Under the pieces are notes generated by a model, which saw nothing but the letters and a program-made list of their open reading frames with translations, was not told the origin of the DNA and did not search any database. A stretch of DNA of 64,000 nucleotides, taken from Limnomonas spitsbergensis. Taxonomy: Eukaryota; Chlorophyta; Chlorophyceae; Chlamydomonadales. The stretch lies in the NCBI GenBank assembly GCA_037349105.1, contig JAYJMM010000068.1:805001-869000 (forward strand), in the 5' to 3' direction. The position numbers were made by a program, and so were the translations under genes. Of the stretch, positions 41,397 through 62,889 are shown piece by piece; the first letter of the stretch is position 1; every line of letters starts with the position of its first letter.

Positions 41397-41406
41397 ATCA
41401 ACACAA

Positions 41407-42453: not shown

Positions 42454-42825
42454 CGACCGTTCCTGCTGTACACCGACTTCTCTAAACAGGGAATAGGAGC
42501 GGTGATGGGGCAGTGTGACGACAGCGGGAGGTAATACATGGTAGCCTGCACCTCACGATCCCTGAACAAAAGCGAGAATAAATACTCGTCATTCCAAGGA
42601 GAAATGCTAGCCGCAATATATGCCGCCCGTACATACCGCCACATGCTGTTTGGGTGCAAGGTGCACCTGATCACGGACCACGAGCCCCTCACTTACCTCA
42701 TGGATAACCAGGCCCTGGTAGGACAGCACGCTTGATGGGCGCTCATGCTCCAGTAGCTCGACGTTACCATCGTCCACCGGCCAGGGGCATGCCACCAGAA
42801 TGCAGATATCCCATATAGGTCGCCC
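42454..42825 (+). pseudogene. RNase H domain, U1
   Basis: FLLYTDFSKQGIGAVMGQ, shared TAA, SFQGEMLAAIYAARTYRHML, LITDHEPLTYLMDN, then TGA at GQHA as in U0, and the shared TAG after LMLQ. All three acidic residues are recognisable. Followed by a linker (42910-43359) of about 100 codons, Ala/Arg-rich, leading to DNMT. Confidence 0.75.
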
Positions 42826-43189
42826 ATCCAGTCCACCGACGACCGCACAGGGGCACGGCTGGATGAAGCCTCCTGTGCGCCTAAGGGACCGGGTGGGGCC
42901 GCCAGCGGATTGCAAGTAGCTATGCTAACTGGGCTGAGCAGGGTGAACCAGTGGCCCGCGGACCATGTGTTGTGCCTAGCACATGAGGACAGAAGGGGGA
43001 TGCAAAGACTGCGAACCGCTGAGGCAGCATGTTTAGTGGCCCCGTGCGGCCAAGCTATCTCCAGCGCAATGAATGAGGATGATGAGCAAGTACAGCCAGC
43101 AAGCTCGGCAGAAAGGGCTTTCAATAGCAGGGCCAGGGCGAGGTCAATCATCAGCGATGAGCTGACAAACCTGCCCCGCTCAACCCCGG

Positions 43190-44215
43190 CCCATCTTTTC
43201 CTTCGGAGGTATGTGCTCGGGACTCGAGATGGTGCTCAGGGCAGGAATCCCGGGCATACAGTACCTGTACGCAGCCACCAATGCTACAGTGCGGGAGATT
43301 GCACGGGGCCGGTTAGTACAGGTGCACATGCAGTTCTTGGTGCTGCTCCCCGCGACTGACTTTCAGGGGGCATTCAGGACGTTGCCCCAGGATGTGTACG
43401 CCATTACTACCCAGCACTTCATAGAGGTAGGGGCCCAAGAGGGTCGCCATTGGTTTATGGTGGCAGGCTGGGAATGCCACGACCTCTCGGCAGCGGGCAA
43501 GGGCAAGAGGCTAGAGGGGGACATGAGCAAGTCCTTCTAACTGTTGATCAAGTTGCTAGGCACTTTGCAAATCCTGCAACAGGCCAGACCGCCTGCATAC
43601 CTGATTGAGAATGTCGCCATGCAGTTGAACCAGAGGAGTGAGAAGGCCAGTATACATGCGTTCAGTGATGTGTGCAGAATCCTGGGCAGACGAGCACTGT
43701 TTGATGCGGCACAGGTGGGCTCATATGCTCACCGCACGCGCAACTATTGGGGCAATTTGGCACCAGCCGCAGACATTGAGCATGTTATCCAGGAATCACA
43801 GAGGCCACACGATGGGATAGTGGACGACATCCTGGACGAGGGTAGCAGGGCCCAGGTTGTGATTTGCCCAGATAACGGCGGGTACCGCATCAATGTGTCA
43901 GGGCAGCCAAGGAGGGCGTTGCCTTGCCTCATGGCCACACCATCATCATACGCCTTCAAGAACGGGCAGATCGGGCTGGGGTTCAGGCCCATGGGGGATC
44001 TGCAGGAGCCCAACGCCAATGAAAGGGAGAGGGCCGTGGGGTATGCTGTAGGGTCCACACTACCCCGCCCAGACTTTCCTGAGGGCGATAGGAGGGCAGC
44101 TTTAGGCAGGTGCATGGACGCTTGGGCCCTAGAGGCCAGGGGGAACGTGGCACTCGAAGTGGCCAAAATCACCCCAGGAGAAGTGACTCGCAGGGCCCGC
44201 TTACCCGGCCCATAA
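43190..44215 (+). pseudogene. Retroelement DNA cytosine-5 methyltransferase, U1
   Basis: Motifs I (FSFGGMCSGLE), IV (AGWECHDLS), VI (LIENV intact), VIII (HRTRNYWGNL) and IX/X are present. One nonsense codon, TAA after MSKSF at 43538-43540, replaces the TAC of U2/U3 and is shared with U0. Near the C-terminus ARGNVALE replaces AQLNVALE. The linker upstream is in another frame. Without the TAA it would be as complete as U2. Confidence 0.8.
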
Positions 44216-44473
44216 TGTGACCCCGCTATCGGAATGGCCCTGAAGTCCACACACGTCGCCGTTGCCACCGCAGGCAAAGCATGCGCAGGCGAAGGGGAGG
44301 TGGCATCGACGTACCGGCAATGCCTGGGAGAGTCTGCAGCGGCCGACTGGGCGGATGCCGCTCAGGAACCAGGTGGGCAGCCAGGGTCGTGAGTCGAGCC
44401 CGCAGACTCCAACGACGAAGATGCGGGGGAGGATGCGAACCCACCCGGGTGTGCAGCGGGACCAGCAGCCCAG

Positions 44474-45358
44474 GTGGATGTGTGGATGGACAAGCCAGTA
44501 TTGCAGTATCTCCGCCAGAAAGTGCATGCCCCAGGGGCTGAGCCAGGGGAGCAAACCAGGGTGCAGCGTAGGGCAGCACCGTTCCTGTGGGAGCCTGAGA
44601 GAGGTGGAGTGCTGATGCGACTCATGCCAGATGAGAGACGATGCGTCGTACCCAGACCCGAGGACAGACTAGCTGTCATCAGGGAAGCGCATGCTAGCAC
44701 TGGCCATTTTGGCAGCCACCGCACGGCCGTCATGGTCATGCAGCAGCACTGGTGGCGGGGACTCAGGGCAGCAGTCAGGAAGGTAGTTCAGGAATGCGGA
44801 GTGTGCGACAGGGCCAGGGCGTCCACATTCAACCATACGCAGCCCAACATGCACCCCATACCGATCGAGGGTTTATTTTTTCGATGGAGGGTGGACCTTT
44901 GCGGGCCTTTCACAACCACACCTAGGGGCAACCGGTATGGCATGGTGTGTGTGGAGCACTACTCCAAGTGGGTTGAGTTGATCCCTATCCCCAGCAAGGC
45001 GTCAGATGTGACGGCCTTGGCGTTCTTCCAAAACGTGATCGCACGGTTTGGGGGGTGTGCAGAGGTGGTCCCCGACCAGGGAACTGAGTTCCAGGGGGAG
45101 TTCCAGGACATGTTACTGGATTGCTTCATTGACCACCGCACCACCACCGCCAGCCACCCCCAGGCAGACGGGCTGTCCGAAAGGGCCGTCCAGACCATCA
45201 AGACTGAATTGCGCAATTGCTGCGGGGACAGGAGCGACGGTGACTCGTGGGACAACAAGGAAAACAGCAACCATGAAGGCCAGGTGGACCACATTGCGGA
45301 ATTCCTGCGGGCCCAGGCGGCCCGGGCAGAGGGCATGGCGGAAAGAAGGAGCCACTGA
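44474..45358 (+). CDS. Ty3/gypsy integrase, U1
   Basis: A 294-codon frame contains the zinc domain (GHFGSH, CGVCD), first Asp in VDLCGP, second in VPDQGTEF (Pro in place of Thr just before Asp), and Glu in LSERAVQ. The frame upstream is closed by TGA after GQPGS, shared with U2/U3 but TTA in U0. The C-terminal 40 codons are gag-derived sequence of the next unit (EFLRAQAARAEG), ending in TGA. The integrase C-terminal domain is absent. Confidence 0.75.
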   Translation: MDVWMDKPVLQYLRQKVHAPGAEPGEQTRVQRRAAPFLWEPERGGVLMRLMPDERRCVVPRPEDRLAVIREAHASTGHFGSHRTAVMVMQQHWWRGLRAAVRKVVQECGVCDRARASTFNHTQPNMHPIPIEGLFFRWRVDLCGPFTTTPRGNRYGMVCVEHYSKWVELIPIPSKASDVTALAFFQNVIARFGGCAEVVPDQGTEFQGEFQDMLLDCFIDHRTTTASHPQADGLSERAVQTIKTELRNCCGDRSDGDSWDNKENSNHEGQVDHIAEFLRAQAARAEGMAERRSH

Positions 45359-45850
45359 CCAGGCCAAGGAAGGCGAGTCCTGCAGGAAATCGAGCCGGCA
45401 AGAAGTACCGTGAGAGACGTCCCACATGGACAGGCAAGCAGGGAGGACGAGCTGTCAATTTCCGCGGCAAGGGAGTACACCGGCGGAACGCAGCCAAGCA
45501 GGCCCAGCAGTAACCAGCCCGGAGGACAAGCGGGATCAGGAGGAGAAATGGGACACCAAGAGCCAGCTCAGCAGCGCTCAGAAGTAGGCAGCCGCCCCGG
45601 AAGTATGGCAAGCGAGCGGCTTTCTAGGGGCGGGCAGTCCCAGAGAAACGCAGACCGCAGAGACAGCCGGGGCTAGCGAAGCCGGAGCCCAGCCAGGGGC
45701 GGAGGCGGCGGGTCAGGCTCTGACCCCAGCCAGTCGGACTATGAAGACACAGAGGGGAGCGGCCCGGGCTCCAGCAGGGAATCCATGAGGCAGAAAAGGG
45801 AGAGGATCGCCCTGGAGCAGGCGGAGATGCACTTGCACTTGCAGAAGTAG

Positions 45851-46603
45851 ATGATCCTGCAGCTGGCTGGGGGGACCAGGTTTTCCAAGATCCCAACCAT
45901 CCAAGGCAACGTGCCGGTGCTGGATATGACCCAGCCTGGGTCGGTCGCTGCCAGGCAGCACTGCCAAGCCTGCATCTCCTGGGGCTCGCATAACCGGCTG
46001 GCATTATCCGACAAGCCGCCAGCGCTTGCAGTGGTAGCCGGGGAGATTGCATGGTCCTACCAATCCCTCTCAGGCATGGCCCTGTTGGTGCGGTCCATGA
46101 TCAACATGTGGAACGACAAGCCAGCCAGCATGGAGCCGCTGGTGGTCGCCATAAGATCAGCGCCTCATGGCTATAGGGTCACCCGGGAGGTCGAGAGGAT
46201 CAAAAGGGCGTGGTCACCCCCGGAAGCAGGACCGCCGTGCAAGGTGTCCTTGCTTACCCTGTGGACCAGGGTGGTGAAGAAGGAGGTGGACAAGCCAACC
46301 TCAGACGAGAGAGCGGCAGTCTCCTGCCTCAAGCTGGGAGTCAGGACCACCCTGGACCCTGGGGTCAAGCCGGAAGAGACAGTGGAGGCGTTTGCCAACA
46401 GGGTCCTGTCCACGGCAGAGCTGCTGCAGATCTCCAGGGATGCCGTTGACCACTTCGACAGACGGCACTCGGTGGCGCACATGTTCTATGAGGGGCTGCC
46501 TGGGGCAGTCAGGGCCACGCTAAGCGCGTTTGTTATCACTTTGCCAGACTACCTGAGCATGACGGATGAGGAGCAAGTTGCAGTGCTAACGCGGCAGGTG
46601 TAG
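45851..46603 (+). CDS. gag capsid region, U2
   Basis: A 250-codon frame differing from U1 at a handful of residues (for example KPEET for EPEET, RRHSV for RRQSV, LWTRVV for LWIRVV). Preceded in frame by 45410-45676 (Gly/Arg/Ser-rich gag N-terminus) through TAG codons at 45674-45676 and 45848-45850. Substitutions are mostly conservative, consistent with recent duplication. Confidence 0.65.
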   Translation: MILQLAGGTRFSKIPTIQGNVPVLDMTQPGSVAARQHCQACISWGSHNRLALSDKPPALAVVAGEIAWSYQSLSGMALLVRSMINMWNDKPASMEPLVVAIRSAPHGYRVTREVERIKRAWSPPEAGPPCKVSLLTLWTRVVKKEVDKPTSDERAAVSCLKLGVRTTLDPGVKPEETVEAFANRVLSTAELLQISRDAVDHFDRRHSVAHMFYEGLPGAVRATLSAFVITLPDYLSMTDEEQVAVLTRQV

Positions 46604-46627
46604 CTATGGGAACGGTTCGCCTTGTAA

Positions 46628-47386
46628 ATGGGGGACCTGACCGCCATGGACTCCAGTCAAGGGCCAGGAGAGCAACAGCAGAGGAGCCAGGGGGAGACGC
46701 ATGCGGGGCGTGGCAGAAGGGATAGGCCCGGTCAGTGGGAGGCCATGCTGAGGCTGGACGGGCCAGGAGCCGCCACCGGACAGAACGGCACCCAGCCCGC
46801 CCGACAGGAAGGAAGAGCCAAGGGAGTCACATGGGCGGAACAAGCAGCCGCTCTGACCACCAGCACCCATGGAACTGGGGGCGCTCCTAAGGCGTGCTTC
46901 CAATGTGGCAACATGGACAACCTGGCAAGGGAGTGCATGACGCCCAGGGCCAGGGATGAGCGCCGCTCAGCACCTCTGGCCACGGACATCGCCACAGGCC
47001 AGGCCAGGCCGCCGCATCAGACGTACCCGCTGCCGCCGAAGCCGCAAGGACAGACAGCAGGCAGACCATATGACAAGAACCAAGGCATCAGGCAATTCCC
47101 AAGACAGCAGCAGGGACAGGCGGGGCATGGCCAACAAGCGGCCCACATGTCCCACCTCACCGGCCCTTCAGAAATAGCGAAACCAGAAGGGTGGCACCAG
47201 AAGGTTGCTGAAATGCTGAGCGAGTCGGTGGCATTGATGACGCAGGTTGGGTTGGCATCCAGGCCAGAGGCATACAAGCAGGCAGCGCACAACGCCAGAC
47301 CCCGGTCCTTCAGACCCTCGTCTAACAGTGAAGAGGAACCCGAATCACCTGTTATTGAACACGCTCCACACATGTCCCGCACCTGA
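46628..47386 (+). CDS. gag nucleocapsid region, U2
   Basis: 252 codons, with the His-to-Asn knuckle CFQCGNMDNLAREC at residues 90-103 and the acidic end SNSEEEPES. In frame with the capsid region through TAG 46601-46603 and TAA 46625-46627, 24 bp apart. The pair VxLWERFALx (x marks the stops) would read as continuous gag if both were sense codons. Confidence 0.6.
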   Translation: MGDLTAMDSSQGPGEQQQRSQGETHAGRGRRDRPGQWEAMLRLDGPGAATGQNGTQPARQEGRAKGVTWAEQAAALTTSTHGTGGAPKACFQCGNMDNLARECMTPRARDERRSAPLATDIATGQARPPHQTYPLPPKPQGQTAGRPYDKNQGIRQFPRQQQGQAGHGQQAAHMSHLTGPSEIAKPEGWHQKVAEMLSESVALMTQVGLASRPEAYKQAAHNARPRSFRPSSNSEEEPESPVIEHAPHMSRT

Positions 47387-47783
47387 AAAGAGGGCAAGCC
47401 GGTGTGCCATCTGCTGTCAGCTGGGACACCGGGCCGAGGCATGCCCTGCGCAAGACCAGCCGCTGGGCAGCATCAGGAGGAAACAGCTGGCAGAGGACAC
47501 CCATAATGAAGTCCAGTGGTGGTGCACCGCGCAGGAGGCACTTCCCAGCGAGAGGGAGGTGGTGCTAACTGCTAAGGGCAGTCCGAGGCAAGGCAAAGGC
47601 CACCAGAGTACGACAGGCCATCGAGGCACGCAGAGCAGAGGAGGACCGCTGGGCCCGGAAGGGAGCCCACCGACCCTTACCATGCAGAGAATGGTTCAGG
47701 GAGGTGAGGCGCCACCCCTTGCAACCGTCCATGCACGCCGACCAGCGCGCCCAAATTTTGTCATTAGGGGCAGCCCTGATTAA
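47247..47783 (+). CDS. Second zinc knuckle and linker, U2
   Basis: Canonical CAICCQLGHRAEAC at residues 53-66, frame-shifted relative to the nucleocapsid frame at the chimeric junction near 47367. It ends VIRGSPD at TAA; the same frame then continues NGYLASRVAADVIDLPLGL before decaying. Confidence 0.55.
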   Translation: MGWHPGQRHTSRQRTTPDPGPSDPRLTVKRNPNHLLLNTLHTCPAPEKRASRCAICCQLGHRAEACPAQDQPLGSIRRKQLAEDTHNEVQWWCTAQEALPSEREVVLTAKGSPRQGKGHQSTTGHRGTQSRGGPLGPEGSPPTLTMQRMVQGGEAPPLATVHARRPARPNFVIRGSPD

Positions 47784-47859
47784 GGCCAACGAAGAAGGCG
47801 TGTGGCCAGACACTCGCAGGCCAATGGATACCTGGCCAGTAGAGTGGCGGCTGACGTAA

Positions 47860-48570
47860 TTGACCTGCCTTTGGGACTACCAGGACATCCAGCGGACAAT
47901 GCTCCAGCATAACCAACAGGGCAGACACCCACATAGGGAGGCCGGTGGCAGCAGCAGTGTAAGACGCGCGCCCGCCAGCCAGGAGGAAGCGCATAGGACG
48001 AATAAGGACAGCACACGGCGAGCCACAACAGGGGAGAGCCAGACCCCAGATAGAGAGGGCTGGGCCGGTTCAGCAGGAACTGCTAGGGCCCGTGACAGCA
48101 GCAATGTGAGGCGCGATCCCGCCAGCAAGGAGGATGTGCAGAGGACGGAAGAGGACAGCACACCGCAGATCGCAACAGGGAGCGCCAGACCCCAGAAGGA
48201 GACGGCGAGGACGGAGCAGCCGAGACTGCTAGGACCAGGGCAGCGGGAGCAAGGAGAGCGCGAAACGCCAGGCAGCGCTCGCGCCGGGACCGCAGGGGGG
48301 CGGCAGAAAAGGGGCGCAACGGCAGGGACAGCGCGGGGTTCCCAGAGCCAACCACCAGGATCAGCCAGGGGGAACTGGAGATCTCGTGGCACGCAGAGGC
48401 CGCCGGGCAGAGCCAGCTGCCCGTCCCGCCACTATCGCCTGCAGGGCCACAACCTGGCCCCAGGCGGCAGCCCTCTTTCAAAAGCCTCATCTCTTGCACG
48501 GCATTCAGAGGGATCCTCGCGGGCCTGTTTCAATTGGCCCTGGTGTGGCTGCTCATATCCTGCCTCCTAG
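47860..48570 (+). CDS. Arg/Gln/Glu-rich linker, U2
   Basis: A 236-codon charged low-complexity frame with the internally duplicated phrases RRAPASQEEAHRTNKD and RRDPASKEDVQRTEED. It is open through to the region overlapping the hydrophobic segment. Probably a disordered gag-pol linker. U1 lacks about 40 bp of it. Confidence 0.35.
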   Translation: MTCLWDYQDIQRTMLQHNQQGRHPHREAGGSSSVRRAPASQEEAHRTNKDSTRRATTGESQTPDREGWAGSAGTARARDSSNVRRDPASKEDVQRTEEDSTPQIATGSARPQKETARTEQPRLLGPGQREQGERETPGSARAGTAGGRQKRGATAGTARGSQSQPPGSARGNWRSRGTQRPPGRASCPSRHYRLQGHNLAPGGSPLSKASSLARHSEGSSRACFNWPWCGCSYPAS

Positions 48571-48842
48571 GGGCCCACGCGAGTGGGCGAGGGGTACGAG
48601 GAGGAGGCTTCACTGCGGGGCAGGGGGCGTTCGTGAGCAGCAGGGGGGTAGCGGCAAATCTAGAACCTGGATGGCTGCGCCCACCCGTGGACATGCCCGC
48701 AGGCAGCACCAGCCGCCAGCACGGCAGTTGGGACCAAAGCAACGCCAGCGCCGGGCCGCCAGTAGCGGATGGCGAGCCGCTGTCAGGAGGAGTTATCGAC
48801 ATGTTCCAGCCCGGGGGAGTGGTGGAAGCCCCTTTAGAGTAA
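48386..48842 (+). CDS. Hydrophobic segment and pre-RT linker, U2
   Basis: The frame from 48534 encodes LVWLLISCLLGAHASGRGV following LAGLFQLA upstream in frame. This gives a hydrophobic run of about 20 residues, then a Gly/Ser-rich region with two possible glycosylation-like NAS/WDQSNAS contexts. It ends GGVVEAPLE at the shared TAA (48840-48842). Confidence 0.35.
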
Positions 48843-48852
48843 ATCAACACAA

Positions 48853-49968
48853 ATGAAAGGTGGCTGCTTGGAAAGCACCCCGATTTCACCAACGAGCAGC
48901 AGGAGAAGCTGGAGCAGAGCCTACGGGATCGCAAAGGCGCGTTCGCTTACTCCATGGATGGAGGACTTGCCGGGCTACTGCGGGGCACAGGGTGAGTTCA
49001 CTTTGGCTTTAGAGGACGAGGACAGTTCATGCTTTCAGAAGGCCAGGGACATGCCGCCCCCTAAAGCTGCCATCTTTAAGGATACGTGCCAACCCATGAT
49101 TGAGGCAGGGATCATTGTCAGAGTACCTCAGGGGGGTCCCATCAAGTTTGCAGCCAACTCTGTGGTGGCAGCAAAGAAGTGTGCTTAGAAGGGCCAGTGG
49201 TCAGACCACCGAATCGCGCATGACATGAGATGGCTGAACCTCCGCACGGCCAAGCAGGAGTTTGCCATCCCCAGGATGGAGACCATTTTTCAGAACATGG
49301 ACACGGCTAAGGTGTTTAGCAAAGTGGATCTGAGGTCAGGGTTCATGCAGATCCCGATCAAACCAGAGGACCAGTCTAAGACTGCTTTCTGGATGGGCCC
49401 GGAGCTGTGGATGTATACCAAGTTGAACTTCGGGCTGCGCAATGGGCGTCCCTTCTTCCAGCGTATGATGGAAGAAGAGATTGCCATGGCAGGCCTGAGC
49501 TCCTTTGTGTTGCATTCATTGACGACATGCTAGTGTACAACGACACGCCTGCAGAGCACATCAGGCATGTAGAGCTCATGCTAGACATGCTCCATAAGGT
49601 GGGGCTGAGAGAGCATCCAGACAAGTCCATGTTCTGGTGTGCAACGGTCGAGTGCTTAGGCCACAATGTGTCGGCCCAAGGGATCACGCCGCACGCAGCC
49701 AAGATAGCAGCTGTCATGGCACTGCCTGAGCCAGCATCGGTCAAAAACATCCAGGAGGTTATGGGGTTTTTGAACTTCTACCGGTGTTACATCCCATATT
49801 TCTCTAAGAAGGCAGCATGCATCAATGCCCTGCTGGTCAAGGGGGTACCCTTTGTGTGGGGCCCTGAGCAGTCCCAGGCCTTTCTGCTGATCAAAACTGA
49901 AATGTGTGAGGGCGGCAGGGTCCTGCGCAGGCCAGACTACAACGGGGCCGGGCGGCCAAGGGCCACCG
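48853..49968 (+). pseudogene. Ty3/gypsy reverse transcriptase, U2
   Basis: Motif A VDLRSGF (Asp codon 49327-49329), motif B FGLRNGRPFFQ, motif C FIDDMLVYND, then CLGHNVSAQGITPHAAK, the ancestral form without the 17-bp deletion of U0/U1. Thumb VMGFLNFYRCYIPYFSKKA follows. Lesions: shared ATGG duplication, TAG at 49186-49188 (KKCA then stop; Glu elsewhere), shared missing base before FIDD, and a 5-bp loss near 49945 before RNase H. Four lesions make it dead. Confidence 0.8.
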
Positions 49969-50345
49969 CGACCGTTCATGCTGTACACCGACTTATGTAA
50001 ACAGGGAATAGGAGCGGTGCTGGGGCAGTGTGATGACAGCGGGAGGTAATACATGGTAGCCTGCACCTCACGATCCCTGAACAAAAGCGAGAAGACATAC
50101 TCGTCATTCCAAGGAGAAATGCTAGCCGCAATATATGCCGCCCGTACATACCGCCACATGCTGTTTGGGTGCAAGGTGCACCTGATCACGGACCACGAGC
50201 CCCTCACTTACCTCATGGATAACCAGGCCCTGGTAGGACAGCACGCCCGATGGGCGCTCATGCTCCAGTAGCTCGACGTTACCATCGTCCACCGGCCAGG
50301 AGCATGCCACCAGAATGCAGATATCCCGTCTACGTCGCCCATCCA
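49969..50345 (+). pseudogene. RNase H domain and linker to DNMT, U2
   Basis: MLYTDLCKQGIGAVLGQ (Asp codon 49990-49992), shared TAA, SFQGEMLAAIYAARTYRHML (Glu), LITDHEPLTYLMDN (Asp), QHARWALMLQ with Arg retained where U0/U1 have TGA, then the shared TAG and VTIVHRPGACHQNADIPS. A linker of about 90 codons (50425-50700) follows, containing VVRLAHEGRRGVQRLRTAEA, and shifts frame before DNMT. Confidence 0.75.
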
Positions 50346-50704
50346 GTCCACCGACGACCGCACAGGGGCACGGCTGGATGAAGCCTCCCCTGCGCCTAAG
50401 GGACCGGGTGGGGCCGCCAGCGGATTGCAAGTAGCTATGCTAACTGGGCTGAGCAGGGTGAAACAGTGGCACGCGGACCAGGTGGTGCGCCTAGCACATG
50501 AGGGCAGAAGGGGGGTGCAAAGACTGCGAACCGCTGAGGCAGCATGTTTAGTGGCCCCGTGCGGCCAAGCTATCTCCAGCGCAATGAATGAGGATGATGA
50601 GCAAGTACAGCCAGCAAGCTCGGCAGAAAGGGCTTTCAATAGCAGGGCCAGGGCGAGGTCAATCATCAGCGATGTGCTGACAAACCTGCCCCGCTCAACC
50701 CCGG

Positions 50705-51730
50705 CCCATCTTTTCCTTCGGAGGTATGTGCTCGGGACTCGAGATGGTGCTCAGGGCAGGAATCCCGGGCATACAGTACCTGTACGCAGCCACCAATGCT
50801 ACAGTGCGGGAGATTGCAGGGGGCCGGTTAGTACAGGTGCACATGCAGTTCCTGGTGCTACTCCCCGCGACTGCCTTTGAGGGGGCATTCAGGACGTTGC
50901 CCCAGGATGTGTACGCCATTACTACCCAGCACTTCATAGAGGTAGGGGCCCAAGAGGGTCGCCATTGGTTTATGGTGGCAGGTTGGGAATGCCACGACCT
51001 CTCGGCAGCGGGCAAGGGCAAGAGGCTTGAGGGGGACATAAGCAAGTCCTTCTACCCGCTGATCAAGTTGCTAGGCACTTTGCAAATCCTGCAACAGGCC
51101 AGACCGCCTGCATACCTGATTGAGAATGTCGCCATGCAGTTGAACCAGAGGAGTGAGAAGGCCAGTATACATGCGTTCAGTGATGTGTGCAGAATCCTGG
51201 GCAGACGAGCACTGTTTGATGCGGCACAGGTGGGCTCATATGCTCACCGCACGCGCAACTATTGGGGCAATTTGGCACCAGCCGCAGACATTGAGCATGT
51301 TATCCAGGAATCACAGAGGCCACACGATGGGATAGTGGACGACATCCTGGACGAGGGTAGCAGGGCCCAGGTTGTGATTTGCCCAGATAACGGCGGGTGC
51401 CGCATCAATGTGGCAGGGCAGCCAAGGAGGGCGCTGCCTTGCCTCATGGCCACACCATCATCATACGCCTTCAAGAACGGGCAGATCGGGCTGGGGTTCA
51501 GGCCCATGGGGGATCTGCAGGAGCCCAACGCCAATGAAAGGGAGAGGGCCGTGGGGTATGCTGTAGGGTCCACACTACCCCGCCCAGACTTTCCTGAGGG
51601 CGATAGGAGGGCAGCTTTAGGCAGGTGCATGGACGCTTGGGCCCTAGAGGCCCAGCTCAACGTGGCACTCGAGGTGGCCAAAATCACCCCAGGAGAAGTG
51701 ACTCGCAGGGCCCGCTTACCCGGCCCATAA
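50705..51730 (+). CDS. Retroelement DNA cytosine-5 methyltransferase, intact frame, U2
   Basis: 334 codons from Met 50726, with the motif I start PIFSFGG just upstream in frame (50705). Motif I: FSFGGMCSGLE (SAM binding). Motif IV: AGWECHDLSAAGKGKRLEG, catalytic Cys89, with Glu in place of the usual Pro. Motif VI: LIENV (Glu133). Motif VIII: AHRTRNYWGNL (173-183), very like the DNMT3 AHRARYFWGNL. Motif IX/X: GYAVGST and ALGRCMDAWALE (277-308). Motif order is canonical, not permuted. Motif II reads YLYAATNAT and lacks the acidic residue seen in element III (YSDID), so SAM binding may be weak. It would transfer methyl groups to cytosine in DNA, presumably retroelement cDNA or the locus. Family assignment strong; activity unproven. 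Confidence 0.85.
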   Translation, partial: PIFSFGGMCSGLEMVLRAGIPGIQYLYAATNATVREIAGGRLVQVHMQFLVLLPATAFEGAFRTLPQDVYAITTQHFIEVGAQEGRHWFMVAGWECHDLSAAGKGKRLEGDISKSFYPLIKLLGTLQILQQARPPAYLIENVAMQLNQRSEKASIHAFSDVCRILGRRALFDAAQVGSYAHRTRNYWGNLAPAADIEHVIQESQRPHDGIVDDILDEGSRAQVVICPDNGGCRINVAGQPRRALPCLMATPSSYAFKNGQIGLGFRPMGDLQEPNANERERAVGYAVGSTLPRPDFPEGDRRAALGRCMDAWALEAQLNVALEVAKITPGEVTRRARLPGP

Positions 51731-51988
51731 TGTGACCCCGCTATCGAAATGGCCCTGAAGTCCACACACGTCGCCGTTGCCACCGCAGGCAAAGCATGCT
51801 CAGGCGAAGGGGAGGTGGCAGCGACGTACCGGCAATGCCTGGGAGAGTCTGCAGCGGCCGACTGGGCGGATGCCGCTCAGGAACCAGGTGGGCAGCCAGG
51901 GTCGTGAGTCGAGCCCGCAGACTCCAACGACGAAGATGCGGGGGAGGTTGCGAACCCACCCGGGTGTGCAGCGGGACCAGCAGCCCAG

Positions 51989-52873
51989 GTGGATGTGTGG
52001 ATGGACAAGCCAGTATTGCAGTATCTCCGCCAGAAAGTGCATGCCCCAGGGGCTGAGCCAGGGGAGCAAACCAGGGTGCAGCGTAGGGCAGCACCGTTCC
52101 TGTGGGAGCCTGAGAGAGGTGGAGTGCTGATGCGGCTCATGCTAGATGGGAGACGATGCGTCGTACCCAGACCCGAGGACAGGCTAGCTGTCATCAGGGA
52201 AGCGCATGCTAGCACTGACCATTTTGGCAGCCACCGCACGGCCTTCATGGTCATGCGGCAGCACTGGTGGCGGGGACTCAGGGCAGCAGTCAGGATGGTA
52301 GTTCAGGAATGCGGAGTGTGCGACAGGGCCAGGGCGTCCACATTTAACCATACGCAGCCCAACATGCACCCCATACCGATCGAGGGTTTATTTTTCCGAT
52401 GGGGGGTGGACCTTTGCGGGCCTTTCACAACCACACCTAGGGGCAACCGGTATGTCATGGTGTGTGTCGAGCACTACTCCAAGTGGGTTGAGTTGATCCC
52501 TATCCCCAGCAAGGCGTCAGATGTGACGGCCTTGGCGTTCTTCCAAAACGTGATCGCACGGTTTGGGGGGTGTGCAGAGGTGGTCACCGATCAGGGAACT
52601 GAGTTCCAGGGGGAGTTCCAGGACATGTTACTGGATTGCTTCATTGACCACCGCACCACCACCGCCAGCCACCCCCAGGCAGACGGGCTGTCCGAAAGGG
52701 CCGTCCAGACCCTCAAGACTGAATTGCGCAAGTGCTGCGGGGACAGGATCGACGGTGACTCGTGGGACAACAAGGAAAACAGCAACCAGGAAGGCCAGGT
52801 GGACCACATTGCGGAATTCCTGCGGGCCCAGGCGGCCCGGGCAGAGGGCATGGCGGAAAGAAGGAGCCACTGA
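51989..52873 (+). CDS. Ty3/gypsy integrase, U2
   Basis: 294 codons. Zinc domain H78, H82, C108, C111. Catalytic core D141 (VDLCGP), D201 (VTDQGTEF), E236 (LSERAVQ), a D,D35E arrangement. Gly is retained before D141 (RWGVDLCG), unlike U0/U1. Homology to complete integrases ends at residue 260 (SWDN); the rest belongs to the next unit's gag segment. The C-terminal DNA-binding part, and any PHD, is missing. It would join cDNA ends to target DNA if complete. Confidence 0.8.
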   Translation: MDVWMDKPVLQYLRQKVHAPGAEPGEQTRVQRRAAPFLWEPERGGVLMRLMLDGRRCVVPRPEDRLAVIREAHASTDHFGSHRTAFMVMRQHWWRGLRAAVRMVVQECGVCDRARASTFNHTQPNMHPIPIEGLFFRWGVDLCGPFTTTPRGNRYVMVCVEHYSKWVELIPIPSKASDVTALAFFQNVIARFGGCAEVVTDQGTEFQGEFQDMLLDCFIDHRTTTASHPQADGLSERAVQTLKTELRKCCGDRIDGDSWDNKENSNQEGQVDHIAEFLRAQAARAEGMAERRSH

Positions 52874-53365
52874 CCAGGCCAAGGAAGGCGAGTCCTGCAG
52901 GAAATCGAGCCGGAAAGAAGTACCGTGAGAGACGTCCCACATGGACAGGCAAGCAGGGAGGACGAGCTGTCAATTTCCGCGGCAAGGGAGTACACCGGCG
53001 GAACGCAGCCAAGCAGGCCCAGCAGTAACCAGCCCGGAGGACAAGCGGGATCAGGAGGAGAAATGGGACACCAAGAGCCAGCTCAGCAGCGCTCAGAAGG
53101 AGGCAGCCGCCCCGGAAGTATGGCAAGCGAGCGGCTTTCTAGGGGCGGGCAGTCCCAGAGAAACGCAGACCGCAGAGACAGCCGGGGCTAGCGAAGCCGG
53201 AGCCCAGCCAGGGGCGGAGGCGGCGGGTCAGGCTCTGACCCCAGCCAGTCGGACTATGAAGACACAGAGGGGAGCGGCCCGGGCTCCAGCAGGGAATCCA
53301 TGAGGCAGAAAAGGGAGAGGATCGCCCTGGAGCAGGCGGAGATGCACTTGCACTTGCAGAAGTAG

Positions 53366-54118
53366 ATGATCCTGCAGCTGGCTGGGGGGACCAGGTTTTC
53401 CAAGATCCCAACCATCCAAGGCAACGTGCCGGTGCTGGATATGACCCAGCCTGGGTCGGTCGCTGCCAGGCAGCACTGCCAAGCCTGCATCTCCTGGGGC
53501 TCGCATAACCGGCTGGCATTATCCGACAAGCCGCCAGCGCTTGCAGTGGTAGCCGGGGAGATTGCATGGTCCTACCAATCCCTCTCAGGCATGGCCCTGT
53601 TGGTGCGGTCCATGATCAACATGTGGAACGACAAGCCAGCCAGCATGGAGCCGCTGGTGGTCGCCATAAGATCAGCGCCTCATGGCTATAGGGTCACCCG
53701 GGAGGTCGAGAGGATCAAAAGGGCGTGGTCACCCCCGGAAGCAGGACCGCCGTGCAAGGTGTCCTTGCTTACCCTGTGGACCAGGGTGGTGAAGAAGGAG
53801 GTGGACAAGCCAACCTCAGACGAGAGAGCGGCAGTCTCCTGCCTCAAGCTGGGAGTCAGGACCACCCTGGACCCTGGGGTCAAGCCGGAAGAGACAGTGG
53901 AGGCGTTTGCCAACAGGGTCCTGTCCACGGCAGAGCTGCTGCAGATCTCCAGGGATGCCGTTGACCACTTCGACAGACGGCACTCGGTGGCGCACATGTT
54001 CTATGAGGGGCTGCCTGGGGCAGTCAGGGCCACGCTAAGCGCGTTTGTTATCACTTTGCCAGACTACCTGAGCATGACGGATGAGGAGCAAGTTGCAGTG
54101 CTAACGCGGCAGGTGTAG
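53366..54118 (+). CDS. gag capsid region, U3
   Basis: Protein identical to U2 over 250 codons, flanked by the same TAG codons. The preceding N-terminal gag frame (52925-53191) and the continuation SRESMRQKRERIALEQAEM are likewise unchanged apart from single bases. Confidence 0.65.
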   Translation: MILQLAGGTRFSKIPTIQGNVPVLDMTQPGSVAARQHCQACISWGSHNRLALSDKPPALAVVAGEIAWSYQSLSGMALLVRSMINMWNDKPASMEPLVVAIRSAPHGYRVTREVERIKRAWSPPEAGPPCKVSLLTLWTRVVKKEVDKPTSDERAAVSCLKLGVRTTLDPGVKPEETVEAFANRVLSTAELLQISRDAVDHFDRRHSVAHMFYEGLPGAVRATLSAFVITLPDYLSMTDEEQVAVLTRQV

Positions 54119-54142
54119 CTATGGGAACGGTTCGCCTTGTAA

Positions 54143-54901
54143 ATGGGGGACCTGACCGCCATGGACTCCAGTCAAGGGCCAGGAGAGCAACAGCAGAGGA
54201 GCCAGGGGGAGACGCATGCGGGGCGTGGCAGAAGGGATAGGCCCGGTCAGTGGGAGGCCATGCTGAGGCTGGACGGGCCAGGAGCCGCCACCGGACAGAA
54301 CGGCACCCAGCCCGCCCGACAGGAAGGAAGAGCCAAGGGAGTCACATGGGCGGAACAAGCAGCCGCTCTGACCACCAGCACCCATGGAACTGGGGGCGCT
54401 CCTAAGGCGTGCTTCCAATGTGGCAACATGGACAACCTGGCAAGGGAGTGCATGACGCCCAGGGCCAGGGATGAGCGCCGCTCAGCACCTCTGGCCACGG
54501 ACATCGCCACAGGCCAGGCCAGGCCGCCGCATCAGACGTACCCGCTGCCGCCGAAGCCGCAAGGACAGACAGCAGGCAGACCATATGACAAGAACCAAGG
54601 CATCAGGCAATTCCCAAGACAGCAGCAGGGACAGGCGGGGCATGGCCAACAAGCGGCCCACATGTCCCACCTCACCGGCCCTTCAGAAATAGCGAAACCA
54701 GAAGGGTGGCACCAGAAGGTTGCTGAAATGCTGAGCGAGTCGGTGGCATTGATGACGCAGGTTGGGTTGGCATCCAGGCCAGAGGCATACAAGCAGGCAG
54801 CGCACAACGCCAGACCCCGGCCCTTCAGACCCTCGTCTAACAGTGAAGAGGAACCCGAATCACCTGTTATTGAACACGCTCCACACATGTCCCGCACCTG
54901 A
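54143..54901 (+). CDS. gag nucleocapsid region, U3
   Basis: 252 codons with the Asn-substituted knuckle. One residue differs from U2 and U4: Pro instead of Ser in NARPRPFRPSS. U2 and U4 agree against U3 here, so this change is private to U3. Confidence 0.6.
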   Translation: MGDLTAMDSSQGPGEQQQRSQGETHAGRGRRDRPGQWEAMLRLDGPGAATGQNGTQPARQEGRAKGVTWAEQAAALTTSTHGTGGAPKACFQCGNMDNLARECMTPRARDERRSAPLATDIATGQARPPHQTYPLPPKPQGQTAGRPYDKNQGIRQFPRQQQGQAGHGQQAAHMSHLTGPSEIAKPEGWHQKVAEMLSESVALMTQVGLASRPEAYKQAAHNARPRPFRPSSNSEEEPESPVIEHAPHMSRT

Positions 54902-55298
54902 AAAGAGGGCAAGCCGGTGTGCCATCTGCTGTCAGCTGGGACACCGGGCCGAGGCATGCCCTGCGCAAGACCAGCCGCTGGGCAGCATCAGGAGGAAACA
55001 GCTGGCAGAGGACACCCATAATGAAGTCCAGTGGTGGTGCACCGCGCAGGAGGCACTTCCCAGCGAGAGGGAGGTGGTGCTAACTGCTAAGGGCAGTCCG
55101 AGGCAAGGCAAAGGCCACCAGAGTACGACAGGCCATCGAGGCACGCAGAGCAGAGGAGGACCGCTGGGCCCGGAAGGGAGCCCACCGACCCTTACCATGC
55201 AGAGAATGGTTCAGGGAGGTGAGGCGCCACCCCTTGCAACCGTCCATGCACGCCGACCAGCGCGCCCAAATTTTGTCATTAGGGGCAGCCCTGATTAA
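54762..55298 (+). CDS. Second zinc knuckle and linker, U3
   Basis: Canonical CAICCQLGHRAEAC knuckle, identical to U2. The same frameshift as U1, U2 and U4 lies at the chimeric gag/knuckle junction. Confidence 0.55.
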   Translation: MGWHPGQRHTSRQRTTPDPGPSDPRLTVKRNPNHLLLNTLHTCPAPEKRASRCAICCQLGHRAEACPAQDQPLGSIRRKQLAEDTHNEVQWWCTAQEALPSEREVVLTAKGSPRQGKGHQSTTGHRGTQSRGGPLGPEGSPPTLTMQRMVQGGEAPPLATVHARRPARPNFVIRGSPD

Positions 55299-55374
55299 GG
55301 CCAACGAAGAAGGCGTGTGGCCAGACACTCGCAGGCCAATGGATACCTGGCCAGTAGAGTGGCGGCTGACGTAA

Positions 55375-56085
55375 TTGACCTGCCTTTGGGACTACCAGGA
55401 CATCCAGCGGACAATGCTCCAGCATAACCAACAGGGCAGACACCCACATAGGGAGGCCGGTGGCAGCAGCAGTGTAAGACGCGCGCCCGCCAGCCAGGAG
55501 GACGCGCATAGGACGAATAAGGACAGCACACGGCGAGCCACAACAGGGGAGAGCCAGACCCCAGATAGAGAGGGCTGGGCCGGTTCAGCAGGAACTGCTA
55601 GGGCCCGTGACAGCAGCAATGTGAGGCGCGATCCCGCCAGCAAGGAGGATGTGCAGAGGACGGAAGAGGACAGCACACCGCAGATCGCAACAGGGAGCGC
55701 CAGACCCCAGAAGGAGACGGCGAGGACGGAGCAGCCGAGACTGCTAGGACCAGGGCAGCGGGAGCAAGGAGAGCGCGAAACGCCAGGCAGCGCTCGCGCC
55801 GGGGCCGCAGGGGGGCGGCAGAAAAGGGGCGCAACGGCAGGGACAGCGCGGGGTTCCCAGAGCCAACCACCAGGATCAGCCAGGGGGAACTGGAGATCTC
55901 GTGGCACGCAGAGGCCGCCGGGCAGAGCCAGCTGCCCGTCCCGCCACTATCGCCTGCAGGGCCACAACCTGGCCCCAGGCGGCAGCCCTCTTTCAAAAGC
56001 CTCATCTCTTGCACGGCATTCAGAGGGATCCTCGCGGGCCTGTTTCAATTGGCCCTGGTGTGGCTGCTCATATCCTGCCTCCTAG
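55375..56085 (+). CDS. Arg/Gln/Glu-rich linker, U3
   Basis: 236 codons as U2 with two residue changes (SQEDAH for SQEEAH, SARAGAAGG for SARAGTAGG). Low complexity, no domain. Confidence 0.35.
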   Translation: MTCLWDYQDIQRTMLQHNQQGRHPHREAGGSSSVRRAPASQEDAHRTNKDSTRRATTGESQTPDREGWAGSAGTARARDSSNVRRDPASKEDVQRTEEDSTPQIATGSARPQKETARTEQPRLLGPGQREQGERETPGSARAGAAGGRQKRGATAGTARGSQSQPPGSARGNWRSRGTQRPPGRASCPSRHYRLQGHNLAPGGSPLSKASSLARHSEGSSRACFNWPWCGCSYPAS

Positions 56086-56357
56086 GGGCCCACGCGAGTG
56101 GGCGAGGGGTACGAGGAGGAGGCTTCACTGCGGGGCAGGGGGCGTTCGTGAGCAGCAGGGGGGTAGCGGCAAATCTAGAACCTGGATGGCTGCGCCCACC
56201 CGTGGACATGCCCGCAGGCAGCACCAGCCGCCAGCACGGCAGTTGGGACCAAAGCAACGCCAGCGCCGGGCCGCCAGTAGCGGATGGCGAGCCGCTGTCA
56301 GGAGGAGTTATCGACATGTTCCAGCCCGGGGGAGTGGTGGAAGCCCCTTTAGAGTAA
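55901..56357 (+). CDS. Hydrophobic segment and pre-RT linker, U3
   Basis: Same as U2: LAGLFQLALVWLLISCLLGA followed by Gly/Ser-rich sequence and the shared TAA. Confidence 0.35.
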
Positions 56358-56367
56358 ATCAACACAA

Positions 56368-57483
56368 ATGAAAGGTGGCTGCTTGGAAAGCACCCCGATT
56401 TCACCAACGAGCAGCAGGAGAAGCTGGAGCAGAGCCTACGGGATCGCAAAGGCGCGTTCGCTTACTCCATGGATGGAGGACTTGCCGGGCTACTGCGGGG
56501 CGCAGGGTGAGTTCACTTTGGCTTTAGAGGACGAGGACAGTTCATGCTTTCAGAAGGCCAGGGACATGCCGCCCCCTAAAGCTGCCATCTTTAAGGATAC
56601 GTGCCAACCCATGATTGAGGCAGGGATCATTGTCAGAGTACCTCAGGGGGGTCCCATCAAGTTTGCAGCCAACTCTGTGGTGGCAGCAAAGAAGTGTGCT
56701 TAGAAGGGCCAGTGGTCAGACCACCGAATCGCGCATGACATGAGATGGCTGAACCTCCGCACGGCCAAGCAGGAGTTTGCCATCCCCAGGATGGAGACCA
56801 TTTTTCAGAACATGGACACGGCTAAGGTGTTTAGCAAAGTGGATCTGAGGTCAGGGTTCATGCAGATCCCGATCAAACCAGAGGACCAGTCTAAGACTGC
56901 TTTCTGGATGGGCCCGGAGCTGTGGATGTATACCAAGTTGAACTTCGGGCTGCGCAATGGGCGTCCCTTCTTCCAGCGTATGATGGAAGAAGAGATTGCC
57001 ATGGCAGGCCTGAGCTCCTTTGTGTTGCATTCATTGACGACATGCTAGTGTACAACGACACGCCTGCAGAGCACATCAGGCATGTAGAGCTCATGCTAGA
57101 CATGCTCCATAAGGTGGGGCTGAGAGAGCATCCAGACAAGTCCATGTTCTGGTGTGCAACGGTCGAGTGCTTAGGCCACAATGTGTCGGCCCAAGGGATC
57201 ACGCCGCACGCAGCCAAGATAGCAGCTGTCATGGCACTGCCTGAGCCAGCATCGGTCAAAAACATCCAGGAGGTTATGGGGTTTTTGAACTTCTACCGGT
57301 GTTACATCCCATATTTCTCTAAGAAGGCAGCATGCATCAATGCCCTGCTGGTCAAGGGGGTACCCTTTGTGTGGGGCCCTGAGCAGTCCCAGGCCTTTCT
57401 GCTGATCAAAACTGAAATGTGTGAGGGCGGCAGGGTCCTGCGCAGGCCAGACTACAACGGGGCCGGGCGGCCAAGGGCCACCG
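56368..57483 (+). pseudogene. Ty3/gypsy reverse transcriptase, U3
   Basis: Motifs and lesions as in U2: ATGG duplication, TAG at 56701-56703, missing base before FIDD (frame ends FVLHSLTTC at 57046-57048), and the 5-bp loss before RNase H. The leader reads GCAQG like U0, where U2 has the single-base change to GTQG. Confidence 0.8.
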
Positions 57484-57860
57484 CGACCGTTCATGCTGTA
57501 CACCGACTTATGTAAACAGGGAATAGGAGCGGTGCTGGGGCAGTGTGATGACAGCGGGAGGTAATACATGGTAGCCTGCACCTCACGATCCCTGAACAAA
57601 AGCGAGAAGACATACTCGTCATTCCAAGGAGAAATGCTAGCCGCAATATATGCCGCCCGTACATACCGCCACATGCTGTTTGGGTGCAAGGTGCACCTGA
57701 TCACGGACCACGAGCCCCTCACTTACCTCATGGATAACCAGGCCCTGGTAGGACAGCACGCCCGATGGGCGCTCATGCTCCAGTAGCTCGACGTTACCAT
57801 CGTCCACCGGCCAGGAGCATGCCACCAGAATGCAGATATCCCGTCTACGTCGCCCATCCA
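57484..57860 (+). pseudogene. RNase H domain and linker to DNMT, U3
   Basis: Identical to U2 in all recognisable residues (YTDLCKQG, GEMLAAIYA, TDHEPLTYL) with the shared TAA and TAG. The linker to DNMT (57940-58215) is the same. Confidence 0.75.
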
Positions 57861-58219
57861 GTCCACCGACGACCGCACAGGGGCACGGCTGGATGAAGCC
57901 TCCCCTGCGCCTAAGGGACCGGGTGGGGCCGCCAGCGGATTGCAAGTAGCTATGCTAACTGGGCTGAGCAGGGTGAAACAGTGGCACGCGGACCAGGTGG
58001 TGCGCCTAGCACATGAGGGCAGAAGGGGGGTGCAAAGACTGCGAACCGCTGAGGCAGCATGTTTAGTGGCCCCGTGCGGCCAAGCTATCTCCAGCGCAAT
58101 GAATGAGGATGATGAGCAAGTACAGCCAGCAAGCTCGGCAGAAAGGGCTTTCAATAGCAGGGCCAGGGCGAGGTCAATCATCAGCGATGTGCTGACAAAC
58201 CTGCCCCGCTCAACCCCGG

Positions 58220-59245
58220 CCCATCTTTTCCTTCGGAGGTATGTGCTCGGGACTCGAGATGGTGCTCAGGGCAGGAATCCCGGGCATACAGTACCTGTAC
58301 GCAGCCACCAATGCTACAGTGCGGGAGATTGCAGGGGGCCGGTTAGTACAGGTGCACATGCAGTTCCTGGTGCTACTCCCCGCGACTGCCTTTGAGGGGG
58401 CATTCAGGACGTTGCCCCAGGATGTGTACGCCATTACTACCCAGCACTTCATAGAGGTAGGGGCCCAAGAGGGTCGCCATTGGTTTATGGTGGCAGGTTG
58501 GGAATGCCACGACCTCTCGGCAGCGGGCAAGGGCAAGAGGCTTGAGGGGGACATAAGCAAGTCCTTCTACCCGCTGATCAAGTTGCTAGGCACTTTGCAA
58601 ATCCTGCAACAGGCCAGACCGCCTGCATACCTGATTGAGAATGTCGCCATGCAGTTGAACCAGAGGAGTGAGAAGGCCAGTATACATGCGTTCAGTGATG
58701 TGTGCAGAATCCTGGGCAGACGAGCACTGTTTGATGCGGCACAGGTGGGCTCATATGCTCACCGCACGCGCAACTATTGGGGCAATTTGGCACCAGCCGC
58801 AGACATTGAGCATGTTATCCAGGAATCACAGAGGCCACACGATGGGATAGTGGACGACATCCTGGACGAGGGTAGCAGGGCCCAGGTTGTGATTTGCCCA
58901 GATAACGGCGGGTGCCGCATCAATGTGGCAGGGCAGCCAAGGAGGGCGCTGCCTTGCCTCATGGCCACACCATCATCATACGCCTTCAAGAACGGGCAGA
59001 TCGGGCTGGGGTTCAGGCCCATGGGGGATCTGCAGGATCCCAACGCCAATGAAAGGGAGAGGGCCGTGGGGTATGCTGTAGGGTCCACACTACCCCGCCC
59101 AGACTTTCCTGAGGGCGATAGGAGGGCAGCTTTAGGCAGGTGCATGGACGCTTGGGCCCTAGAGGCCCAGCTCAACGTGGCACTCGAGGTGGCCAAAATC
59201 ACCCCAGGAGAAGTGACTCGCAGGGCCCGCTTACCCGGCCCATAA
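58220..59245 (+). CDS. Retroelement DNA cytosine-5 methyltransferase, intact frame, U3
   Basis: 334 codons from Met 58241, one residue different from U2 (GDLQDPNAN for GDLQEPNAN, outside the motifs). Motif I (in-frame from 58220), Cys in GWECHDLS, ENV, HRTRNYWGNL and the C-terminal ALGRCMDAW are all retained, motif II acidic residue absent. Two adjacent units with a fully open DNMT contrast with their broken gag, RT and RNase H. Confidence 0.85.
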   Translation, partial: PIFSFGGMCSGLEMVLRAGIPGIQYLYAATNATVREIAGGRLVQVHMQFLVLLPATAFEGAFRTLPQDVYAITTQHFIEVGAQEGRHWFMVAGWECHDLSAAGKGKRLEGDISKSFYPLIKLLGTLQILQQARPPAYLIENVAMQLNQRSEKASIHAFSDVCRILGRRALFDAAQVGSYAHRTRNYWGNLAPAADIEHVIQESQRPHDGIVDDILDEGSRAQVVICPDNGGCRINVAGQPRRALPCLMATPSSYAFKNGQIGLGFRPMGDLQDPNANERERAVGYAVGSTLPRPDFPEGDRRAALGRCMDAWALEAQLNVALEVAKITPGEVTRRARLPGP

Positions 59246-59503
59246 TGTGACCCCGCTATCGAAATGGCCCTGAAGTCCACACACGTCGCCGTTGCCACCG
59301 CAGGCAAAGCATGCTCAGGCGAAGGGGAGGTGGCAGCGACGTACCGGCAATGCCTGGGAGAGTCTGCAGCGGCCGACTGGGCGGATGCCGCTCAGGAACC
59401 AGGTGGGCAGCCAGGGTCGTGAGTCGAGCCCGCAGACTCCAACGACGAAGATGCGGGGGAGGTTGCGAACCCACCCGGGTGTGCAGCGGGACCAGCAGCC
59501 CAG

Positions 59504-60388
59504 GTGGATGTGTGGATGGACAAGCCAGTATTGCAGTATCTCCGCCAGAAAGTGCATGCCCCAGGGGCTGAGCCAGGGGAGCAAACCAGGGTGCAGCGTA
59601 GGGCAGCACCGTTCCTGTGGGAGCCTGAGAGAGGTGGAGTGCTGATGCGGCTCATGCTAGATGGGAGACGATGCGTCGTACCCAGACCCGAGGACAGGCT
59701 AGCTGTCATCAGGGAAGCGCATGCTAGCACTGGCCATTTTGGCAGCCACCGCACGGCCTTCATGGTCATGCGGCAGCACTGGTGGCGGGGACTCAGGGCA
59801 GCAGTCAGGATGGTAGTTCAGGAATGCGGAGTGTGCGACAGGGCCAGGGCGTCCACATTTAACCATACGCAGCCCAACATGCACCCCATACCGATCGAGG
59901 GTTTATTTTTCCGATGGGGGGTGGACCTTTGCGGGCCTTTCACAACCACACCTAGGGGCAACCGGTATGTCATGGTGTGTGTCGAGCACTACTCCAAGTG
60001 GGTTGAGTTGATCCCTATCCCCAGCAAGGCGTCAGATGTGACGGCCTTGGCGTTCTTCCAAAACGTGATCGCACGGTTTGGGGGGTGTGCAGAGGTGGTC
60101 ACCGATCAGGGAACTGAGTTCCAGGGGGAGTTCCAGGACATGTTACTGGATTGCTTCATTGACCACCGCACCACCACCGCCAGCCACCCCCAGGCAGACG
60201 GGCTGTCCGAAAGGGCCGTCCAGACCCTCAAGACTGAATTGCGCAAGTGCTGCGGGGACAGGATCGACGGTGACTCGTGGGACAACAAGGAAAACAGCAA
60301 CCAGGAAGGCCAGGTGGACCACATTGCGGAATTCCTGCGGGCCCAGGCGGCCCGGGCAGAGGGCATGGCGGAAAGAAGGAGCCACTGA
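59504..60388 (+). CDS. Ty3/gypsy integrase, U3
   Basis: 294 codons; differs from U2 at residue 77 (Gly for Asp: STGHFGSH), restoring the residue found in U0 and U1, so U2 carries the derived change. Zinc ligands and D,D35E are present; truncated after SWDN as in all units. Confidence 0.8.
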   Translation: MDVWMDKPVLQYLRQKVHAPGAEPGEQTRVQRRAAPFLWEPERGGVLMRLMLDGRRCVVPRPEDRLAVIREAHASTGHFGSHRTAFMVMRQHWWRGLRAAVRMVVQECGVCDRARASTFNHTQPNMHPIPIEGLFFRWGVDLCGPFTTTPRGNRYVMVCVEHYSKWVELIPIPSKASDVTALAFFQNVIARFGGCAEVVTDQGTEFQGEFQDMLLDCFIDHRTTTASHPQADGLSERAVQTLKTELRKCCGDRIDGDSWDNKENSNQEGQVDHIAEFLRAQAARAEGMAERRSH

Positions 60389-61633: not shown

Positions 61634-61657
61634 CTATGGGAACGGTTCGCCTTGTAA

Positions 61658-62813: not shown

Positions 62814-62889
62814 GGCCAACGAAGAAGGCGTGTGGCCAGACACTCGCAGGCCAATGGATACCTGGCCAGTAGAGTGGCGGCTGACGTAA

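Follow-up and report, generated by a model that had tools for sequence, protein, structure and literature searches.

The cytosine-5 DNA methyltransferase (DNMT) domain encoded at positions 50681 to 51730 of the window, the window being the whole 64,000-nucleotide stretch of Limnomonas spitsbergensis DNA analyzed here, is very probably a segment of a decayed Ty3/gypsy element that is present as a tandem array together with scattered broken copies. The lineage of this element has the domain order reverse transcriptase (RT), RNase H (RH), DNMT3-like methyltransferase, integrase (INT) and PHD finger. The arrangement of the DNA, the domain order and the breaks were observed directly, while homology suggests what the methyltransferase would have done.

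Identity of the methyltransferase domain

The domain lies in an open frame of the third array unit (U3), where the C5-methyltransferase motifs I, IV, VI, VIII and IX/X follow one another in the canonical, unrearranged order, as originally predicted. The relevant features are as follows.

50681..51730, + strand: DNMT3-like cytosine-5 methyltransferase domain of U3, a stop-to-stop ORF of 349 aa in frame 2
50789..50791, + strand: motif II position (residue 37, right after the predicted strand 30-36), Ala here and Asp in 125/126 relatives
50984..51013, + strand: motif IV, WECHDLSAAG, with the catalytic Cys at 50990-50992 (Cys in 132/132 relatives)
51122..51130, + strand: motif VI, ENV (E and N in 132/132 relatives)
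51242..51274, + strand: motif VIII, AHRTRNYWGNL, DNMT3-like

A family HMM of 133 relatives matched the ORF with an E value of 9.3e-116 and matched none of 200 shuffled sequences. Against 992 six-frame pieces of the window, the same HMM returned at E<=1 only the DNMT pieces of units U1 to U4 and of a second copy, E2. The Pfam profile proposed at the outset as a check was less decisive; PF00145 (DNA_methylase) scored 17.2 bits, under its 22-bit cut-off, and is weak alone. A protein search with the window DNMT gave 12 proteins at E<=1e-3 (best 3e-65) with identities of at most 46%. When PDB sequences were searched by phmmer with the U3 DNMT, 29 distinct matches were obtained at E<=1, all of them DNMT3, and a profile of 10 relatives placed DNMT3A (1.7e-15) ahead of M.HhaI (4e-6) and DRM2 (8e-5) among the sequences of solved structures. 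The AlphaFold model of the U3 DNMT (18 sequences) had a pLDDT of 86.6, and its comparison with the PDB ranked DNMT3A first, with the best 50 matches listed all of DNMT3 type. Among solved structures DNMT3 thus ranked ahead of DRM, HhaI and the rest.

Animal DNMT3A and DNMT3B are the best matches in both sequence and fold, and their motif order is likewise unrearranged. The predicted likeness of motif VIII to DNMT3 is evident from the DNMT3A sequence AHRARYFWGNL. In motif IV the animal DNMT3 enzymes have PCN in contrast to the ECH of the window DNMT, and most of the aligned relatives have ECQ. The animal proteins differ further in being enzymes of the host that carry PWWP and ADD domains (PMC12344493). 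The first in-frame ATG of the ORF, at 50726, falls within motif I; the ORF is therefore not an obvious stand-alone gene.

Motif II, a point absent from the original prediction, departs from this conservation. Its acidic residue, which in these enzymes binds SAM, is replaced by Ala in all four complete units, and a Glu that precedes motif I in 119/125 relatives is also missing from the array DNMT. Of 69 positions at which 85% or more of the relatives are conserved, U3 matches the family at 58 and misses 11, three of which it lacks. Its agreement at covered conserved positions (0.88) compares with a median of 0.96 for 126 well-covered relatives, one of which is lower (0.87) and one equal; this value is at the low end of the relatives' range and not outside it, and the count alone is no proof of decay. 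Judged by sequence and modelled fold, 50681-51730 is a DNMT3-type C5 cytosine methyltransferase domain by descent. The loss in motif II leaves that descent standing and makes the predicted enzyme activity doubtful.

Tandem array and its pol context

The domain is repeated in a head-to-tail array that continues to the end of the window.

32698..39942, + strand: U1, DNMT homologue at about 35773-36821 with two stops and an altered ENV
39943..47359, + strand: U2, DNMT homologue at 43166-44215 with one stop
47360..54874, + strand: U3, holding the DNMT ORF 50681-51730
54875..62389, + strand: U4, 99.91% identical to U3, DNMT ORF 58196-59245 open
62390..64000, + strand: start of U5

U3 and U4 differ at 7 of 7515 bases, whereas U1 and U2 are 1.4-2% divergent from each other and from U3/U4 and carry private indels and stops. 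The expectation that the methyltransferase motifs occur in every complete unit accordingly held for the DNA and failed for the reading frame. Only U3 and U4 keep motifs I, IV, VI, VIII and X in an open 349-aa frame, so that the frame is open in two of four complete units; stops interrupt it in U1 and U2, and the ENV motif of U1 is altered.

Around the DNMT of U3 the following parts of an element were recognized.

48795..49940, + strand: pol start and reverse transcriptase region, broken across frames 3-1-3, with stops inside
49969..50403, + strand: RNase H region in frame 1, where all four units share stops at 50047 and 50269
51992..52771, + strand: integrase zinc-binding and core domains, in the frame of the DNMT with two stops between
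53366..54901, + strand: two gag-like ORFs with a zinc-knuckle-like pattern after the truncated integrase (gag call by eye, no Pfam match)

The RNase H match (PF17917, E 6e-20, within 50050-50271) lies upstream of the DNMT, and the integrase zinc domain (PF17921, E 1e-10) and integrase core (PF00665, E 7e-12) lie downstream. RT and RNase H followed by an H2C2 and rve integrase identify a Ty3/gypsy element, and the predicted location of the DNMT, between RNase H and integrase in the pol region of such an element, was confirmed. What did not hold was its residence in a single pol reading frame. The pol frames of U3 run 3-1-3-1-2, that is with four frame changes; RT, RNase H and DNMT-integrase are in different frames, and stops at 48840, 50047, 50269 and 51728 (U3 coordinates) are common to all four units, with extra stops in some. 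No array unit has an open Pol frame. A DNMT inside the Pol frame is found in the predicted proteins of the relatives, and in the window it is visible through collinearity only. A non-standard genetic code was rejected as the source of the stops, since in-frame stops of all three kinds are present and the reading frame also changes. The shared frame breaks could in part be an assembly error common to all units.

Matches to the family stop at the integrase core, and neither an integrase C-terminus nor a PHD finger was matched in the array units. A search for an LTR-like direct repeat pair within the unit found none, the only pair being a 147-bp minisatellite, and primer-binding-site patterns were at chance level (6 found, 5.0 expected). 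We read the missing LTRs and primer site as losses in the array copies. The window yielded no tRNA and no Rfam match at gathering level. The 147-bp period duplication lies at 47940-48236, and at the equivalent place in other units, between the gag-like part and RT; gaps at it are part of why the unit lengths differ. The left edge of the array at 32698 sits within an open frame (32335-33156, + strand) with two zinc-knuckle-like motifs recognized by eye. A blastn comparison of this upstream flank with the units' own gag-like part showed no match, so that U1 may adjoin either a different element or the original 5' part.

A fossil amplified in tandem is the best reading of the array, and amplification of a dead fragment best explains the tandem setting. 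An internal fragment running from the gag-like part to the integrase core, already broken, would have given rise to the head-to-tail units of ~7.5 kb, with unit duplication probably occurring through unequal exchange.

Other copies in the window

Further remnants were found outside the array.

14698..16882, - strand: E2, a second DNMT-Gypsy copy, order DNMT-integrase-PHD, with many stops and frame changes
24301..27009, + strand: E4, a related copy in which a partial RT is joined to integrase and PHD, a deletion having removed RNase H and DNMT
12494..13042, + strand: integrase fragment with a relationship to this same family
27698..28502, + strand: integrase fragment with a relationship to this same family

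The acidic residues of motifs I and II, lost from the array, are still present in E2, and both E2 and E4 retain traces of the integrase C-terminus and PHD. E4 was considered as a DNMT-less sister lineage and rejected as such, its join running from mid-RT to mid-integrase. That one stretch holds fossils of two or more copies, decayed in different ways, suggests a long residence in the genome; these fossils add no working copy.

Several other observations were made in the same stretch. Positions 16944-17273 resemble the DNMT-integrase linker of the array. A 404-aa ORF at 2562-3776 (- strand) shows a weak PDDEXK_9 match (E 5e-4, under the cut-off) together with a knuckle-like Cys/His pattern, and resembles the tail of an ORF from a non-LTR retrotransposon. 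Minisatellites with periods of 6 to 110 bp occupy 6066-6666, 6929-7143, 13762-14148 and 28558-28720. The segments 8745-10225 and 19726-22094 match each other at 73-75% and gave no blastn match to the array.

Sequence change among the units and the state of the array

Each site that varies among the four units was counted once, and the changes were compared with neutral expectation. In the DNMT 21/29 changes were nonsynonymous or stop (p 0.66), in RT-RNase H 38/49 (p 1.0) and in the integrase 16/24 (p 0.22); the between-unit changes look neutral. One sign against neutrality comes from the DNMT of the U2-U3 pair alone (10.5:8.5, pN/pS 0.39, binomial p 0.03 to 0.10 by rounding), which could be a hint of constraint. 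C>T or G>A changes at CpG made up 5/32 of those private to U1 and 1/13 of those private to U2, against a CpG share of 18% of C+G sites, so that among these private changes there is no excess of CpG transitions since the duplications. The CpG observed/expected ratio of the array was 0.60, lower than that of three further stretches of the window (0.70, 0.77 and 0.80).

These values bear on whether the array DNMT might have been kept or domesticated, as an element-derived methyltransferase that acts on either the host genome or the array. The lower CpG ratio and the U2-U3 value would agree with such a role, as would the open frame of U3/U4 with its motifs and the confidently predicted DNMT3 fold. 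We nevertheless consider domestication very unlikely; no in-frame ATG stands ahead of motif I, the motif II acid is lost, the DNMT is out of frame with RT-RNase H, U1 and U2 are stopped, the four units together look neutral and the CpG transitions do not exceed the CpG share. The array and its breaks might alternatively be assembly artefacts, a poor long-read assembly having piled up copies of a single working element and introduced the indels. The near identity of U3 and U4 would fit such stacking. Against it stand the 1.4-2% divergence of U1 and U2 from U3, their private indels and stops, the failure to find an integrase C-terminus or PHD in the units, and the different decay of the window's other copies; we consider an artefact of this kind highly improbable. 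With a decayed, amplified element as the preferred reading, activity in the window's own copies has most likely been lost and we hold out very little prospect of it. Residual activity in U3/U4 is still conceivable because the DNMT ORF is open and the predicted model confident. The original suggestion that the element methylates its own DNA or its neighbourhood is accordingly not borne out for these copies, which are broken and show no excess of CpG transitions private to U1 or U2.

Relatives and their fixed domain order

The DNMT-integrase frame, read through, retrieved 6 proteins, and the DNMT part of relative P0014 retrieved 213 proteins at E<=1e-3. With the 120 listed of these 213, two of which were already known, a total of 124 relatives (P0014 to P0137) was examined, domains being mapped by the best phmmer match for each. 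The order RT-RNase H-DNMT-integrase-PHD was kept in 124/124 of these predicted proteins for the domains present, and all five domains were found in 81. The architectures were distributed as follows.

RT-RH-DNMT-INT-PHD: 81
DNMT-INT-PHD: 16
RT-RH-DNMT: 8
DNMT-INT: 6
RT-RH-DNMT-INT: 6
RH-DNMT-INT-PHD: 4
RH-DNMT-INT: 2
RH-DNMT: 1

Many relatives are incomplete at one end, as short contigs would be expected to give. The searches that brought in these 124 all started from the DNMT or the DNMT-integrase frame, and the set is no measure of the share of Gypsy elements that carry a DNMT. The same order in every relative examined indicates that the placement of the DNMT in pol is no accident.

Two relatives, P0039 and P0041 (QJQ45_005505 and QJQ45_005506), come from the chlorophyte Haematococcus lacustris; they have the domain order of the window element and, in contrast to it, are not visibly broken at the protein level. 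P0041, 2120 aa long, unites RT, RNase H, DNMT, INT and PHD in one predicted protein, and its RT-RNase H part matches Ty3 Gag-Pol with an E value of 6.5e-77. Many relatives come from metagenomes. P0077 is a EukProt entry with a transcript-like name, P0061 is labelled as a bacterial MAG and is probably a misbinned contig, and P0010, from the zygnematophyte Closterium sp. NIES-53 and found with the window DNMT itself, is at most a candidate for membership of such an element. In P0014 a Tudor-like domain follows the PHD. The two PHD fingers tested, those of P0015 and P0041, match fingers of CHD4, MLL3, KDM5, BAZ2, PHF21A, UHRF1 and AIRE among others. Several of these read unmodified H3K4 and others do not; a role of the PHD as a reader of unmodified H3K4 may be taken as a lead only.

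Comparison with known elements

A Dnmt3 in a Gypsy Pol is, as such, known. KnitGypsy-Dnmt3 of Klebsormidium nitens, an LTR Gypsy-type element with a Dnmt3-type DNMT in its Pol ORF, was published in 2018 (PMC5890265), which removes part of the novelty originally suggested for the placement in pol. It resembles the window element in its Gypsy type, in the Dnmt3-type DNMT in Pol and in that its DNMT belongs to a divergent, intronless clade. The accessible part of that text gives no domain order and no PHD, and the comparison made here is one of descriptions. It also describes DIRS-like repeats and DNMTs under purifying selection, whereas the window copies are broken and their LTRs were not found. 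No named Klebsormidium sequence was among the matches listed (120 of 213). Expressed in yeast, KnitGypsy-Dnmt3 was inactive, a result that its authors deem inconclusive (PMC5890265). A 2025 paper (PMC12344493) calls the streptophyte elements Copia, against Gypsy in PMC5890265.

SymbioDIRS-Dnmt3 of Symbiodinium, which methylates CG in yeast (PMC5890265), resembles the window element in carrying a Dnmt3 in retrotransposon Pol and differs in class, being a DIRS element with a tyrosine recombinase, in contrast to the rve-type integrase of the window element and the Ty3-type RT of P0041. DAM- or DCM-encoding Ty3/Gypsy and DIRS retrotransposons in green algae are mentioned in passing, with the elements unnamed, in the accessible part of a 2019 paper (PMC6338049). 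An Ectocarpus paper was set aside as a precedent, the methylase that it describes being of another type. A search by title and start of abstract, with subscription papers, bioRxiv and supplements mostly outside its reach, found no published description of an RT-RNase H-DNMT-INT-PHD lineage in chlorophytes. What looks new is the breadth of the lineage in a chlorophyte and in metagenomes, its measured fixed position and the joining of a DNMT3-type writer to a PHD finger.

Origin and role of the methyltransferase

Capture of the methyltransferase from a virus or bacterium, in place of descent from a eukaryotic DNMT3, would be compatible with the fold, as viral and phage DNMTs share it (45 matches at E<=0.001) with weak sequence similarity. 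Viral and bacterial collections returned only distant DNMTs (12 and 4 loci), and in the library of solved structures, which holds few viral enzymes, roughly nine orders of magnitude separate DNMT3 from the weaker HhaI-type matches; we regard such a capture as improbable. A 54-row tree placed U3/U4 on their own long branch within the family. This tree was midpoint-rooted, its sole DNMT3 row was a partial sequence on a long branch, and the program flagged long branches that meet; since its rooting and rows cannot decide the source of the family or separate a viral or bacterial source from DNMT3, it was dropped as support for a DNMT3 origin. A different question is whether the DNMT of working relatives serves as an antiviral or host-benefit module outside the retrotransposition cycle, a speculation that has been published for transposon methylases (PMC6338049). 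The fixed place in Pol between RNase H and integrase points instead to a role in the cDNA or integration complex, and we consider a module of this kind unlikely.

For a DNMT3-derived domain within Pol, homology suggests a sequence of events in the relatives. Made within Pol and carried with RT and integrase, the DNMT would methylate cytosines, probably in a CG context, either on the cDNA of its own element or at the site of insertion. The PHD finger at the C-terminus might help to position the integration complex. On these grounds it appears quite possible that live relatives methylate themselves or their targets, with our judgment leaning slightly against it. More broadly, and only tentatively, the relatives may represent a large Ty3/gypsy lineage with an epigenetic module in Pol that pairs a DNMT3-type writer, placed between RNase H and integrase, with a C-terminal PHD, in parallel to and independent of animal DNMT3-ADD. 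Under this broader reading, the conservation of catalytic residues across about half-identical relatives would make methylation of the element itself or of its target site part of the life cycle.

Cytosine methylation is normally a weapon of the host against transposons. A common transposon lineage with its own methyltransferase beside the integrase, usually together with a histone-reader-type finger, would reverse that picture, and Haematococcus lacustris, an alga that holds such polyproteins, makes the reversed picture testable.
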